Origin: an uncultured Bacilli bacterium
GTDB taxonomy: Bacteria > Bacillota_I > Bacilli_A > RF39 > UBA660
NCBI GenBank assembly: GCA_947625505.1
Contig: CANQON010000002.1
Coordinates: 1-64,000, forward strand
Length of the DNA: 64,000 nt
Direction: 5' to 3'
Numbering within the stretch: the first letter of the stretch is position 1; each line of letters starts with the position of its first letter. Both the position numbers and the translations under genes were made by a program. Shown here one piece after another: positions 51,505 to 58,782 of the stretch. Below the pieces are notes generated by a model. It saw nothing but the letters and a program-made list of their open reading frames with translations. It had not been told where the DNA came from and made no database searches.

Positions 51505-52221
51505 ATGATATATGCAGAAATACTTGCTGGTGGAGTAGGTAAAAGAATGGGTAATACAGATATGCCCAAACAATTTTTAATGTTAGGAAATAAACCTATT
51601 ATCATTCATACACTAGAACAATTTTTATTAGCTAATGAAATAGCTAAAATAATTATTGGATGCCCAAAAGATTGGATGGGATATATGAATGATTTAGTTG
51701 CAAAATATATTGGTAAAGATGATCATATCGTAGTTATTGAAGGAGGAGCAGATCGTAATGGTACAATTATGAATGCTTGTCATTATATCGAAGATAACTA
51801 TGGATTAACAGATAAAGATATTATTATAACTCATGATGCTGTTAGACCTTTTGTTGATTATCGTATTATTGAGGATAATATTAAGGCTGCTAAAAAGTTT
51901 GATGCTGTTGATACTATTATTCCTGCTGCGGATACAATTGTAGAATCAACAGATGGTAAGGTTTTAAGTAGTATTCCTGTAAGAGATTATTTATATTTAG
52001 GACAAACACCACAAACTTTTAAAATTAAAGAATTAGTTGAAACTTATGATTCATTAACAGATGATGAAAAGAAAATTTTAACAGATGCATGTAAGATGTT
52101 TGTTATTAAAGATAAAAAAGTAGGTTTCATACGTGGTGAAGAATATAATATGAAAGTTACAACTATGCATGATTTAAAATTAGCTAATGCCATATTGGAA
52201 GTTGGTTTAAATCATGATTAA
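51505..52221 (+). CDS. tarI: Ribitol-5-phosphate cytidylyltransferase (TarI/IspD family)
   Basis: IYAEILAGGVGKRMGNTDMPKQFLMLGNKPIIIHTLEQF, ITHDAVRPFVDYRI; adjacent tarJ favours TarI over IspD. Confidence 0.88.
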   Translation: MIYAEILAGGVGKRMGNTDMPKQFLMLGNKPIIIHTLEQFLLANEIAKIIIGCPKDWMGYMNDLVAKYIGKDDHIVVIEGGADRNGTIMNACHYIEDNYGLTDKDIIITHDAVRPFVDYRIIEDNIKAAKKFDAVDTIIPAADTIVESTDGKVLSSIPVRDYLYLGQTPQTFKIKELVETYDSLTDDEKKILTDACKMFVIKDKKVGFIRGEEYNMKVTTMHDLKLANAILEVGLNHD

Positions 52222-53233
52222 TTGTCATTATCGATTACATTCACCTAAAAGAATAGGTGTCGACTTTGTTGAAGAAGAACTTACTGATGATAAAGTAATA
52301 GTTAAACCATTATATTTATCTATATGTGCTGCTGATGAAAGATATTATCAAGGAAAAAGAGATCCTAAGGTATTAGCTAAAAAATTACCTATGTCATTAA
52401 TTCATGAGGCCGTAGGTGAGGTATTAAAAGATCCTAAAGGAGAGTTTAAACCTGGTACTAAAGTTGTATTAATACCTAATACACCTGTTGAAACAGATGA
52501 TATAGTAAAAGAAAATTATTTAAGAAGCAGTAAATTTAGAGCCAGTGGTTTTGATGGTTTCATGCAAAGTATTGTTCTAATGGATCGTGGACGTATTATT
52601 CCTTATGAAAATGTTGAAGATCGTGTAGCTGTTCTATTAGAATTAATGAGTGTTACAATGAATGCTTTAGAGCATTTTGATAAATATAGTCATTTAAAAA
52701 AACAAACTATTGGTGTATGGGGATGTGGTAACGTTGGATATGTTACTTCCTTAATATTAAAAAAACTATATCCAAATGCCAAAATAATTGTTTTTGGTAC
52801 TAATACTAATAAGCTACATTATTTTCAATTTGCTGATGCAACTTATTTAGTAAGTGATATTCCAGAAGATTTAACTGTTGATCATGCCTTTGAATGTGTT
52901 GGAGGTAGGGGAGCAGAATCAGCTATTAATCAAATGATAGATATTATAAACCCTCAAGGATCTATTGCTCTTATGGGTGTATCTGAAGAGTTAGTAGGCA
53001 TTAATACTAGAATGGTATTAGAAAAAGGTATTACTTTATTAGGTAATAGTCGTAGTGGCTATGAAGACTTTGATGCTGCTATTAAGTTTTTAAATAATTT
53101 CCCAGAAACAATTGATTACTTAAAGAGAATTATTTCTGAGGAAGTTGTTGTACATTCTATTGGTGATATGACAAAAGCTTTCGAACTTGATAGTAATGTT
53201 GATTTTAAAACAATTATGAAGTGGGAAATATAA
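52214..53233 (+). CDS. tarJ: Ribulose-5-phosphate reductase / zinc-type alcohol dehydrogenase (TarJ)
   Basis: KPLYLSICAADERYYQGKRDP, GVWGCGNVGYVTSLILKKLYP; overlaps tarI. Confidence 0.85.
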   Translation: MINCHYRLHSPKRIGVDFVEEELTDDKVIVKPLYLSICAADERYYQGKRDPKVLAKKLPMSLIHEAVGEVLKDPKGEFKPGTKVVLIPNTPVETDDIVKENYLRSSKFRASGFDGFMQSIVLMDRGRIIPYENVEDRVAVLLELMSVTMNALEHFDKYSHLKKQTIGVWGCGNVGYVTSLILKKLYPNAKIIVFGTNTNKLHYFQFADATYLVSDIPEDLTVDHAFECVGGRGAESAINQMIDIINPQGSIALMGVSEELVGINTRMVLEKGITLLGNSRSGYEDFDAAIKFLNNFPETIDYLKRIISEEVVVHSIGDMTKAFELDSNVDFKTIMKWEI

Positions 53234-53262
53234 AAAATAAATAGAAACAGGAGGATTAATAA

Positions 53263-55905
53263 ATGAATAATAAATTTAAGATATCCGTCATTGTTCCTAT
53301 ATATAATGTTGAGAAATATTTAGAAGAATGTATTGAAAGCGTAATACATCAAACAATTGGATTCAAAGAGAATATTCAACTGATATTAGTTAATGATGGA
53401 TCACCTGATAATAGCGAGCAAATATGCTTAAAATACAAAGAAAAATACCCAAATAATGTTATTTATATTAAGCAAAAAAATGCAGGGGTATCAGCTGCTA
53501 GAAACAACGGTTTGAAGCATGCTGAAGGAAAATATGTTAACTTTTTAGACTCTGATGATAAATGGGATTATGGAGCCTTACAAAAAGGTTACAATATGTT
53601 AGAAGAGAATGATGAAATAGATTTAGTAGGCTTTCGTTTAAAATTTTTTGATCATCAAAAAGGTTATCATGCTCTTGATTATAAATTTACTAAAGACGGC
53701 ATAATAGACATTAATGATGAACCTGAAAATATTTTATTACATATTAATTCTGCATTAATAAGAAAAGATGCTTTAAATGGTAAAGAATTTTGTGAGAGTT
53801 TAAAAATAAGTGAAGATACAAGACTTCTTTATGAAATTATTTTTGAAAAAGAAAAATATGGTATTATTTCAAGTTTAAATTATAACTATCGTAAGAGAAG
53901 TGATGAATCAAGTGCTATTCAAACGTCAAAGACTAAAAAATATTGGTATTTAGATACATTAGAATTGGCTCATAAATACTTAATGGACTATTCTATCAAG
54001 AAGTTTAAGGTTGTTCATCCTTATCTACAACATTTTTTAGCATATGATTTGTTTTGGCGTATATATGCTCAGATTGCTATTAAACTTTCTGATGAAGAAC
54101 GAAAAAAATATATTGATTCTATTAAATATTTAATCGATAATATTGATGATAAAGTACTAGCTTTTCAATTTAAAAATCGTGTTGATAGATTATTAATGGT
54201 ATATCAAATTAAATATGGAAAGAATCTTGAAGAAAAACTGGTATTTAAAGATAATGCAATCTACATTGATAATGATAAAGTTATCGATTATGCTCAATTT
54301 CAAAATACGATTAATTTATTTGAAATGCATGATGATAAGTTAATGATAGTTGGAGAAGTAAATAGTACTTTACCTATATCTTTGTTTTATACTTATGATA
54401 ATAAAAAAATTAATATTGAAACATTTTTAATGACTAATGAAGAAGATTTTGGAATAAATAATCAAAAATATGGTTATCGTATCTATATCAATCTTGATCA
54501 ATCTAGTACATTATCTTTTTCTATGAATTTATTTGGACATGATATTCCTTTAACAAATTATTTTACGCATTTTTCACGTCTAAATGAATTAAAAAAAGGA
54601 TATTATTATGAAAATAAGTACTTGTTTGTTAAAAGTAAAAATCATCAGAGTATTATTATTGAACGAAAACCATCAGTGTTTAAAATTATAAAACATGAAT
54701 TAATTTATTTAATTTCTATTTTATGCAGTTTTAAATTGAAAGCTTTTATTATTCGCTTTCTTTATTGGATAACTAAACCTTTTATTAGAAAAAATATTTG
54801 GTTGTTTTGTGATAGAGAGTTTATGGGAGAAGATAGTGGTGAAATCTTCTTTAGATACTTCAATAATCATAATAAAGATAAAAAAATTAAAACTTATTTC
54901 ATCATAGATAAACATTATGATGATTATAAAAGAATGCAACAATATGGTAATGTTGTTAGTTATCATACTTTTAAATTTATGTTGTTATTTTTACATTCAA
55001 AAGTTTTAATTTCATCACATGCTGATGGATATATTAATAATCCTTTTGGTTCTTTTAGACCTTATTATGTAGATTTATATCGTTTTAAGTATATTTATTT
55101 AACACATGGAATATTGTTACATGATTCTTCTAGTTGGTTAAATAGAATTAATAAGAATTTTGCTTTAAATGTTACTACTAGTCCTATGGAATATGAAAGT
55201 ATTATTAAAGGTAAATATTATTTTGAAGATGATGAATTATTAAAGACAGGTATACCTAGATATGATAATTTAAAAAATTTAGATATCAAGGAAGAGAATA
55301 AAATATTATTTATGCCTAGTTGGCGTAGTTTGTTAGTTCCTAATATTATACCTGGAACTCAAAGGAGAGAATATAATCCTGAATTTAAAGATAGTGAATA
55401 TTATAAATTTTATGATCGATTACTTAATGATAAAAAATTACTTGATGTTCTTAAAGAAAAAAATCTAAAAATTAAATTCTGCGTTCATCCAAGTTTTCGA
55501 GCTCAATTTAAAGACTTTATTGGTAATGATTATGTTGAATTTGCTATTGATGTAAATTCACAATATGAAACATTATCTAGTAAAATGTTAGTAACTGATT
55601 ACTCATCAGCTGCTTGTGATTTTGCTTATTTAAATAAACCTGTTATATATGCTAACTTTGATTTAGATCATATCTATGATGTACATTATTATAATAAAGG
55701 ATATTTTGATTATGATAGAGATGGATTTGGCCCAAATTGTCAAAGTTATGATGAAACATTAAACGAAATAATCAAAGTAATTAATAATAATTTTAAAGTT
55801 GAAGAAAAATATAAAAAACGAATGAAAAATTTCTTCTTTTATCGAGATAATAAAAATTGTGAACGTATTTATAATGAAATTATTAAACGTTTACATAATA
55901 AATAA
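53263..55905 (+). CDS. Bifunctional GT2 plus CDP-ribitol/CDP-glycerol phosphotransferase (TarL-like) fusion
   Basis: ISVIVPIYNVEKYLEECIESVIHQTIGFKENIQLILVNDGSPDNS; C-terminal YIYLTHGILLHDSSSWLNR, LFMPSWRSLLVPN, VTDYSSAACDFAYLNKPVIYANFDLDH. Confidence 0.87.
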   Translation: MNNKFKISVIVPIYNVEKYLEECIESVIHQTIGFKENIQLILVNDGSPDNSEQICLKYKEKYPNNVIYIKQKNAGVSAARNNGLKHAEGKYVNFLDSDDKWDYGALQKGYNMLEENDEIDLVGFRLKFFDHQKGYHALDYKFTKDGIIDINDEPENILLHINSALIRKDALNGKEFCESLKISEDTRLLYEIIFEKEKYGIISSLNYNYRKRSDESSAIQTSKTKKYWYLDTLELAHKYLMDYSIKKFKVVHPYLQHFLAYDLFWRIYAQIAIKLSDEERKKYIDSIKYLIDNIDDKVLAFQFKNRVDRLLMVYQIKYGKNLEEKLVFKDNAIYIDNDKVIDYAQFQNTINLFEMHDDKLMIVGEVNSTLPISLFYTYDNKKINIETFLMTNEEDFGINNQKYGYRIYINLDQSSTLSFSMNLFGHDIPLTNYFTHFSRLNELKKGYYYENKYLFVKSKNHQSIIIERKPSVFKIIKHELIYLISILCSFKLKAFIIRFLYWITKPFIRKNIWLFCDREFMGEDSGEIFFRYFNNHNKDKKIKTYFIIDKHYDDYKRMQQYGNVVSYHTFKFMLLFLHSKVLISSHADGYINNPFGSFRPYYVDLYRFKYIYLTHGILLHDSSSWLNRINKNFALNVTTSPMEYESIIKGKYYFEDDELLKTGIPRYDNLKNLDIKEENKILFMPSWRSLLVPNIIPGTQRREYNPEFKDSEYYKFYDRLLNDKKLLDVLKEKNLKIKFCVHPSFRAQFKDFIGNDYVEFAIDVNSQYETLSSKMLVTDYSSAACDFAYLNKPVIYANFDLDHIYDVHYYNKGYFDYDRDGFGPNCQSYDETLNEIIKVINNNFKVEEKYKKRMKNFFFYRDNKNCERIYNEIIKRLHNK

Positions 55906-55912
55906 TTGTAAT

Positions 55913-55932
55913 AGCATTAAAATATGCTTTTT
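55913..55932 (+). terminator. Probable terminator after the tarL-like fusion gene
   Basis: AGCAT-TAAAAT-ATGCTTTTTG. Confidence 0.6.
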
Positions 55933-55951
55933 GCATATACTATAAGTGAAT

Positions 55952-55980
55952 TTGACTTTTATAGGCAAATTTGCTATAAT
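55952..55980 (+). promoter_or_regulatory. Sigma70/SigA-type promoter for the large non-coding RNA
   Basis: TTGACT (55952-55957), 17-nt spacer, TATAAT (55975-55980); predicted TSS about 55987. Confidence 0.88.
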
Positions 55981-55986
55981 GTATCT

Positions 55987-56606
55987 CGTTAATGGCGCAT
56001 TATTCTAGTCAATAACATTTGTTACGAAGGCGGGGGTAAAAGACCGCAAAAGAGCATATCTGTGAAACTTTTGGTGTTTGCTTTTTACGCCCAGTTTAGG
56101 GTGAATGCTGGAAGGTAGAGTGTTGGGCATCCACAATGGCATGTGCAAATGACCCACCATTCATGGAGACCTATTTATGTGTTAAGCCTATACGTACCAT
56201 ACTGATGGACTTAATATGGAATAGGATTGAACCTATCATGTGACGCAAGTTATGGGTAGTGTAGCTTGTCTTGAGTGGTTATTGGGGATAACTCTAGTGT
56301 TAATAATAACCGTAGCTAAGTTTTATTAACGAATTACTGATTTGAAACAATAATTGCAAAAAAGAACTATGAACAAGTGTGTTGGGGAGGAAATCTCCTA
56401 GAGTGTTTGTTAACGTGGGATTCCAGTGCGTACTTAGTGGTAATCAAGCCATACATACAGTGATGTAGTATTGATTTCTTTAAAGGGGAACCGCAATTTG
56501 GTAACGAATTGTAGAAATTAGAGAAACTCTGCTTGACCTATGACGTAAAGTTAACTATGTTAATTGCCATATAATAAGATAAGAAGAAAGGACTTAGTCC
56601 TTTTTT
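55987..56606 (+). ncRNA. Large structured non-coding RNA, candidate OLE (ornate large extremophilic) RNA
   Basis: About 620-nt non-coding gap with own promoter and terminator; less AT-rich than flanks; multiple complementary segments (56032-56042/56081-56092; 56221-56225/56232-56236; 56277-56283/56305-56311; 56494-56498/56507-56511; 56520-56530); immediately upstream of an OapA-like gene. Confidence 0.8.
56587..56606 (+). terminator. Terminator at the 3' end of the large ncRNA
   Basis: AAAGGAC-TTA-GTCCTTTTTT. Confidence 0.8.
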
Positions 56607-56612
56607 GTTTCG

Positions 56613-56641
56613 TTGACAAATATTACTAAATAAGATAAAAT
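56613..56641 (+). promoter_or_regulatory. Separate promoter for the OapA-like gene
   Basis: TTGACA (56613-56618), 17-nt spacer, TAAAAT (56636-56641), downstream of the ncRNA terminator. Confidence 0.8.
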
Positions 56642-56661
56642 TATTATGGTTAGGAGTTAGT

Positions 56662-57231
56662 ATGAAAAAGGAAATAAAAAATCAACTAGAGGACAAGAAA
56701 AAAGCTAAACTTAAAGCTAATTTAAAATGGAGTTTAAGTTTAACTGTAGTAGCAGCTATTATATCTGTTACTTTATCATTTATATCGGAAATAGCTATGA
56801 AAGATGTAAGTTTATTAATTGGTGTTATTGTTATATTATCTTTCATTGGTATTGGTATTATATTTGATATGGTAGGTGTTGCTGTTACATCAGCTGATGA
56901 AGCACCTTTTCATGCTATGCGTTCTAAAAGAGTTAAGGGTGCTAATATGGCAGTTACTTTAAAGAAAAGTGCTAATAAAGTATCATCATTTTGTTGTGAT
57001 GTTATTGGTGATATCTGTGGTATTATATCAGGTGCTGCAGGAGTAGCTGTTGCAGCCCAAATAACTAAAATATTTGGTATATCTACTTTAGTTAGTAGTT
57101 TAATTGTTACAGGTATGATTGCTGCTTTAACGATAGGTGGAAAATCATTAGAAAAGCCTGCAGCTATAAATAATGGAAATAAAATATTATATCAATTTGC
57201 TAAAATCCTTAGTATATTTAGTAAAGCTTAA
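56662..57231 (+). CDS. oapA: OapA-like (OLE-associated protein A / CorB-DUF21-like) integral membrane protein
   Basis: 189 aa, about four TM segments; IGIIFDMVGVAVTSADEAPFHAMRSKRVKGA, VSSFCCDVIGDICGIISGAAG, ALTIGGKSLEKPAAINNGNKI; position directly after a large ncRNA. Confidence 0.78.
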   Translation: MKKEIKNQLEDKKKAKLKANLKWSLSLTVVAAIISVTLSFISEIAMKDVSLLIGVIVILSFIGIGIIFDMVGVAVTSADEAPFHAMRSKRVKGANMAVTLKKSANKVSSFCCDVIGDICGIISGAAGVAVAAQITKIFGISTLVSSLIVTGMIAALTIGGKSLEKPAAINNGNKILYQFAKILSIFSKA

Positions 57232-57242
57232 TGGAGGATTAT

Positions 57243-58043
57243 ATGAGAAAGTTTTTTTATAACATTAGAAAGTATTTTAAATATGCCATTTATTCAGCTA
57301 AAGCAGAATTAAAAAGTGAAGTTGCTGACTCATATCTTAACTGGTTATGGTGGGTAATTGAACCAATCTGTTTTATGTTAATATATTACTTTGTTTTTGG
57401 TGTTATATTTCCAAATAATGAAAAGTATTTTGCATCTTTTGTTTTTATTGGTTTATCAGCCTGGGAATTTTTTAATCGAATGATTAATGGTAGTGTTAAA
57501 TTAATAATTAATAATCGTGATTTAGTTACTAAAGTATATATTCCTAAATATATATTATTACTATCTAAATCATTTACTTATTTATTTAAATTAGGTATTT
57601 CTTTATTAATTGCGTTTGCTCTTATGCTTTATCAAGGAGTACCATTTACTTGGCATTTCTTACTATTTATACCAATTTTAATAATATTATATCTTTTATC
57701 TTTTGGCATTGGATTATTATTAATGCATTTTGGTGTTTCATTTAATGACTTAGCTAATTTAACAGAAATTGGTTTAAGAATGGTATTCTATGTATCTGGT
57801 GTCTTCTATAATATAACATCACGTTTAGGTAATAGACATGTTGGACCTATTAAGATAGGTGGCTTTTTACTTAAAGCTAATCCAGTAGCTTTTTGTATGG
57901 ATTCATTACGTAGAGTCATGTTATATGCTAAATTACCTGATTTTAAATTTTTACTTATATGGTTAGTGATTAGTATATTATTATGTGCATGGGGAGTACA
58001 TGTAATTCATAAGAATGAAAATAGTTATGCGAAGGTGATATAA
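57243..58043 (+). CDS. tagG: Teichoic acid / polysaccharide ABC exporter permease (TagG-like)
   Basis: SEVADSYLNWLWWVIEPICFMLIYYFVFGVIF, ABC-2 type permease; followed by TagH-like ATPase; ATG 57243 after TGGAGG. Confidence 0.88.
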   Translation: MRKFFYNIRKYFKYAIYSAKAELKSEVADSYLNWLWWVIEPICFMLIYYFVFGVIFPNNEKYFASFVFIGLSAWEFFNRMINGSVKLIINNRDLVTKVYIPKYILLLSKSFTYLFKLGISLLIAFALMLYQGVPFTWHFLLFIPILIILYLLSFGIGLLLMHFGVSFNDLANLTEIGLRMVFYVSGVFYNITSRLGNRHVGPIKIGGFLLKANPVAFCMDSLRRVMLYAKLPDFKFLLIWLVISILLCAWGVHVIHKNENSYAKVI

Positions 58044-58044
58044 A

Positions 58045-58782
58045 GTGGCAGATAAAAAAAAGATTGCCGTTACGGTTAAAGATCTTCATATTACATATCG
58101 TGGACTTAAGAAGACATCCATTCGTGCTTCTTGGAAAAACTTTGGTAATAAAATCGAATTGTTTCATGCTTTAAAAGGTGTAAGCTTTGAGATAGAAGAG
58201 GGTAAAATATTAGGTATTATTGGTACTAATGGTGCTGGTAAATCAACTATGTTACGTGCTATAGCAGGTATCTTCTCTCCTGATAAAGGTAAAATTGATT
58301 TACATGGTAATACAATTTCTTTACTATCAATAGGTGTTGGTTTTAATAAAAAGTTAACAGGACGTGAAAATATTTTCTTATCAGGTATGTTACTTGGGTT
58401 CTCTGAAGATGATATTAGAAAAAAAGAAAAAGATATAATTGAATTTGCTGATATAGGTGATTTTATTGATAAACCTGTTAAGACTTATTCATCAGGTATG
58501 TATTCTAAATTAGCATTTGCTATTACAGCTATTTTAGAGACTGATATTATGCTTATTGATGAAGTATTATCAGTAGGAGATGCTAAATTTAAAGAGAAAA
58601 GCTATAATAAAATGAAAGAGTTAATTAGCGATGAACATCGTACCGTTATTATTGTTTCTCATAGTCTTGATACTATTGAAGAGTTATGTGATGAAGTATT
58701 ATGGCTAAATGAAGGTGAAGTTGTTAAAATAGGAAAACCTAAAGATATTTTACCTGAATATCGTGAATTTATGAAAGACTAA
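58045..58782 (+). CDS. tagH: Teichoic acid / polysaccharide ABC exporter ATP-binding protein (TagH-like)
   Basis: Walker A GTNGAGKSTMLRAIAG, KTYSSGMYSKLAFAI signature, IMLIDEVLSVGD. Confidence 0.92.
   Translation: MADKKKIAVTVKDLHITYRGLKKTSIRASWKNFGNKIELFHALKGVSFEIEEGKILGIIGTNGAGKSTMLRAIAGIFSPDKGKIDLHGNTISLLSIGVGFNKKLTGRENIFLSGMLLGFSEDDIRKKEKDIIEFADIGDFIDKPVKTYSSGMYSKLAFAITAILETDIMLIDEVLSVGDAKFKEKSYNKMKELISDEHRTVIIVSHSLDTIEELCDEVLWLNEGEVVKIGKPKDILPEYREFMKD

Follow-up and report, generated by a model that had tools for sequence, protein, structure and literature searches.

OLE RNA and OapA in described systems

OLE RNA ranks with the largest of the structured bacterial RNAs that have no known biochemical function. 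OapA is a membrane protein whose known role is to keep OLE RNA at the bacterial membrane, and MpfA has been reported to anticorrelate with OLE.

In Fernando and Breaker (2024; PMC11332333), OLE and OapA are described as almost mutually inclusive, and OapA as having four transmembrane (TM) segments and a distinctive DxxxD motif that is missing from CNNM domains. In Halalkalibacterium halodurans, the ole gene cluster is one polycistronic transcript (PMC12265935), and OLE is processed at its 3' end (PMC11332333). OapB and OapC are reported there as missing in RF39 and TANB77, reduced gut clades in which bS21 is present. That these gut clades have both OLE and OapA is already published.

The window analysed here is a stretch of 64,000 nucleotides from an uncultured Bacilli bacterium of the RF39 lineage (GenBank CANQON010000002.1, positions 1 to 64,000), and all coordinates refer to it unless a contig or locus is named. 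As a whole, its ole-oapA locus is best explained by a CNNM-like, OLE-binding membrane protein encoded by oapA, with separate promoters for ole and oapA, a reading to which we give a probability of about 90%. The protein shares with OapA of the OLE complex of H. halodurans and Clostridium botulinum an adjoining ole gene, four TM helices, DxxxD, a basic N-terminus, a CNNM-like core and co-occurrence with OLE. Unlike in those systems, the host oapA appears to have its own promoter behind the ole terminator, and no OapB or OapC was found in the host. The locus resembles the RF39/TANB77 systems of Fernando and Breaker (2024) in its reduced gut genome, missing OapB and OapC and retained OapA; the consulted text of PMC11332333 contains no discussion of transcription signals between ole and oapA. 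No earlier description was found of the terminator-promoter layout or of its conservation, of genomes in which ole and oapA are apart, or of an OapA arm and part of OLE being lost together. For the layout, the search covered the open-access literature.

The ole gene

OLE RNA (RF01071) occupies positions 55976–56586 of the forward strand. The match to the covariance model scores 353.9 bits, where the gathering score is 50, and takes in all 616 model positions (1–616). At 611 nt the host RNA is full-length and thus differs from the variant without P7/P8 that PMC11332333 calls common in RF39. The ole promoter at 55952–55980 (+) reads TTGACT-17-TATAAT, its -10 hexamer being preceded by TG, and judged from it transcription probably starts near 55987. 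A promoter of the same kind was found at nearly the same place in 61 of 70 loci, vs 9% of shuffles; across loci its form is near-consensus, mostly TTGACA-17-TATAAT, again with TG before -10. The gene ends in an intrinsic terminator (56584–56606, +) with a 10-pair stem, a 3-nt loop and a T-tract. Since its promoter is near-consensus and it has a terminator of its own, ole may be read as a monocistronic gene.

Identity of the protein encoded after ole

The oapA open reading frame (ORF; 56662–57231, +) has an ATG start, encodes 189 aa and begins 75 nt after the 3' end of OLE RNA. A ribosome-binding site, AGGAG (56652–56656, +), was read directly from the sequence 5 nt before the ATG. The first-pass annotation, made from the DNA letters, had described a 189-aa protein with a basic N-terminus, about four TM segments and a motif, and each of these features was borne out. 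The N-terminus is basic, and the whole protein holds 23 K+R vs 11 D+E. The motif SADEAPFHAMRSKRVKGA spans residues 77–94 (56890–56943, +); in the family alignment its M86 and G93 are invariant and E80, F83, H84, K90 and A94 nearly so. The AlphaFold2 model (mean pLDDT 85.6), which answered the call for a structural prediction, has four long helices at residues 21–46, 51–77, 104–138 and 142–170, corresponding to four predicted TM helices. The DxxxD hallmark is present as DVIGD at residues 113–117 (56998–57012, +), and DxxxD was found in 108 of 108 OapA proteins.

Linkage to OLE was assessed in 80 related loci drawn by the protein alone. In 78 of them OLE lies upstream of oapA on the same strand, with a median gap of 53 nt. 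Among 117 genomes of the family, OLE was found in 77 and OapA in 77; 75 have both, 38 have neither and four are discordant. In three of these four (G018, G085 and G087) a contig end interrupts the locus, and the fourth (G034) has OLE without an adjoining oapA. In a Clostridia MAG, the protein next to a classical, 543-bit OLE shares 44% identity with the window protein. When 295 genomes of the phylum were searched for OapA, strong matches were confined to the family.

No curated family matched the window ORF in Pfam and NCBIfam at 1e-3, and membership was therefore judged by the defining features of OapA. A search of the PDB with the OapA sequence profile returned nothing meaningful. Linkage, phylogenetic co-occurrence, DxxxD, the four predicted TM helices and a CNNM-like fold agree, and on this basis the ORF product is OapA, as the first-pass annotation had proposed; the refuting outcome named there, closest kinship with an unrelated family that has no tie to OLE, did not occur.

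In the discordant genome G034, contig C19 carries a full-length OLE (L153) with no oapA adjoining, and no oapA was found in this 93%-complete assembly. It is possibly a lone OLE.

Relation to CNNM/CorB/MpfA transporters

The top structural match of the OapA model was MtCorB 7m1t (Z 13.8, 2.3 Å over 130 residues, with a Foldseek E-value of just 0.009), and since Z up to 13 may reflect a common arrangement of helical proteins, weight was placed on the distance to the unrelated structures below it: 7m1u and then bacterial CorC 7cff followed, and the first non-CNNM chain came at Z 8.1 and 6.6 Å. At the sequence level, PF01595 matches 32 of 37 OapA members at E up to 1, the best at 1.7e-6. Comparison of the OapA profile with a profile of five CNNM proteins gave a probability of 2.6%, which does not confirm homology; this comparison being uninformative, the CNNM link rests on the PF01595 matches and the fold. 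The proposed kinship with DUF21/CorB proteins is thus right by fold and by PF01595, and it is remote: the window protein itself matches PF01595 at E 0.009 and 16.1 bits, below the cut-off of 28.4.

The likeness to the Mg2+ transporters MpfA, CorB and CorC (CNNM, PF01595) lies in the fold of the membrane core. OapA differs from them in having an extra first TM helix and DxxxD and in lacking the CBS and CorC domains, neither of which was matched in the 189-aa window protein. It may also lack the conserved proline of the CNNM proteins. When alignment columns were compared as lists and not jointly aligned, P122 was fully conserved among the CNNM proteins, and the OapA family showed no proline at or close to full conservation.

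The core that superposes on MtCorB and bacterial CorC, together with PF01595 as the only family matched by most members, would also suit a stripped-down CNNM/CorB-type metal transporter, a relative of MpfA that stands beside OLE by chance and works without it. We consider this very improbable. The window protein has no CBS or CorC domain and falls under the PF01595 cut-off, and DxxxD, which CNNM domains are reported to lack (PMC11332333), is kept in all 108 OapA proteins. A transporter placed there by chance is further opposed by the agreement between OapA and OLE, present or absent together in 113 of 117 genomes, and by a separate MpfA-type protein, containing both CNNM and CBS domains, that is encoded at another place in the host genome (G000, contig C17:4027–4596, locus L091; contamination of the draft is possible). 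OapA as an OLE partner with a CNNM-like core is the reading retained.

The anticorrelation of MpfA with OLE is not visible within the family, where MpfA-type proteins occur in 4 of 77 OLE-plus and 1 of 40 OLE-minus genomes. MpfA-type proteins were found in only five of the 117 family genomes, and nearly all OLE-minus genomes also lack one.

Terminator and promoter between ole and oapA

A second promoter, TTGACA-17-TAAAAT, had been placed downstream of the RNA terminator in the first-pass annotation, and it is present at 56613–56641 (+). The DNA around the locus has 27% GC and holds nine promoter-like matches in 1.45 kb, vs 7.9 expected from shuffles. At such an AT content a lone match carries no significance, and conservation was therefore examined. 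Comparison of the window with its six nearest relatives shows 100% identity in both hexamers and a spacing fixed at 17 nt; identity is 67% in the spacer, 61% in the upstream flank and 53% in the downstream flank. Invariant hexamers and spacing amid flanks of 53–67% identity make the match significant.

Across the wider group, gaps of 35–250 nt between the genes contain a terminator-like hairpin in 53 of 58 loci, vs 8% of shuffles, and a promoter in 42 of 58, vs 16% of shuffles. These promoters mostly have an extended -10 and stand close behind the T-tract. When 81 proteins were sorted by locus, 54 had a terminator and/or promoter between ole and oapA. Twelve had no terminator ahead of oapA and, wherever the sequence reaches the 5' end of ole, a promoter for ole; some lineages thus seem to be transcribed straight from ole into oapA, and the terminator-promoter layout is not universal. 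Nine were without an ole promoter, namely three Clostridia loci and one Bacilli subclade, and in the remaining six ole and oapA were separated or ole was not upstream. The layout labels cluster on the OapA tree, with 13 changes vs 25.7 in shuffles. The nine loci without an ole promoter resemble the polycistronic arrangement of H. halodurans (PMC12265935).

Could the window locus also be a single transcript, as in H. halodurans, its hairpin a mark of 3' processing and its promoter a coincidence of AT-rich sequence? Promoter-like matches are indeed no more frequent around the locus than in shuffles, some relatives have gaps of 3–20 nt without terminator or promoter, and 3' processing of OLE is known in H. 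halodurans (PMC11332333). Chance does not readily account for two hexamers that stay invariant in seven loci despite diverged flanks, for the excess of terminators and promoters over shuffles where the gap is 35 nt or more, or for an oapA promoter that persists intact in locus L006, where an Rpn-like gene takes the place of ole. In genome G003, moreover, ole and oapA lie on two separate contigs, both away from the contig ends. A single transcript is accordingly judged unlikely, and separate promoters are preferred. Judged from these signals, independent expression of RNA and protein is well supported at the level of sequence; the first-pass annotation had claimed it for this genome, and it is the commonest state in the group and not peculiar to the host. 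Read-through past the ole terminator into oapA is possible.

Several loci depart from the usual gene order. In L006 (1–1120), an Rpn-type nuclease gene stands directly upstream of oapA, and the search of its draft genome for OLE found none. In L096 and L097 (both G003), L078, L033 and L072, ole and oapA are on different contigs or separated by at least one gene. In the Clostridia loci L065, L068 and L075, oapA is followed by dxs, instead of which the host has an exporter permease gene.

Partners and proposed mechanism

The host draft genome comprises 1.66 Mb in 59 contigs and is 94.9% complete and 4.0% contaminated. A search for OapB and OapC, suggested in the first-pass annotation, found neither in this draft, which agrees with the published loss in RF39 and TANB77 (PMC11332333); at about 95% completeness the absence is no proof. 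bS21 is present, and a search for Nramp in the host genome found nothing. KOW matches over the cut-off, taken as OapB candidates, were ribosomal protein L24 and NusG, and an OapC candidate (L7Ae match, E 0.03) was a small ORF between L21 and L27, read as a Prp-type protease.

By analogy with H. halodurans, the four-helix OapA, probably as a dimer, would bind OLE RNA and hold it at the membrane. The host particle is likely reduced to OLE RNA and OapA, perhaps with bS21, and without OapB or OapC. After the end of ole, transcription would restart at the oapA promoter, and the ABC exporter genes behind oapA are likely under the control of this promoter as well. Two promoters would allow the levels of RNA and protein to be set separately. 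A physiological role of the host OLE/OapA in Mg2+ and stress homeostasis may be supposed. These loci offer a natural minimal version, OLE RNA and OapA under separate promoters with OapB and OapC not found, convenient for reconstitution and for asking which ratio of RNA to OapA is needed.

Short OLE and the basic arm of OapA

One clade (L116–L135) has short OLE RNAs of 380–520 nt, and its OapA proteins have 2–6 residues before the first TM helix (18/18). Most full-length OLE RNAs (L002–L081) are paired with OapA proteins having K/R-rich arms of 12–37 residues. Short OLE goes with short arms at a Mann-Whitney p of 3e-11, a value that is no evidence of coupling since the short forms are one clade and hence a single evolutionary event. 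That the basic arm and part of OLE were lost together is a lead only, and it offers a contact that can be tested.

Exporter genes and surroundings

An ABC-2 exporter permease gene directly follows oapA (57231–58043, +), with a better start at 57243 behind GGAGG, and is found directly downstream of oapA in seven of seven clade members. The permease gene is likely co-transcribed with oapA. Next comes a TagH/Wzt-like exporter ATPase (58045–58782, +), matched by models of the teichoic acid export ATP-binding subunit at E 2.6e-65, below their cut-offs.

A broader and rather doubtful proposal, put forward tentatively, is that the OLE particle has been rewired in this gut lineage. RNA and OapA would be separate units with an independently tuned ratio, and oapA of the window clade would be transcriptionally tied to a teichoic-acid-type exporter, linking OLE to envelope-polymer export. 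In the sister clade, an OLE about 110 nt shorter and the lost basic arm of OapA would point to contact between the arm and the lost RNA region. If true, the exporter tie would link OLE function to the export of cell-envelope polymers.

The ole-oapA pair lies within a teichoic-acid-type cluster (51505–58782). Upstream of ole are genes for D-ribitol-5-phosphate cytidylyltransferase, a TarJ-like dehydrogenase and a glycosyltransferase fused to CDP-glycerol glycerophosphotransferase, followed in order by ole, oapA and the ABC exporter pair. Downstream of oapA, the exporter pair and folD recur in each of the seven clade members.
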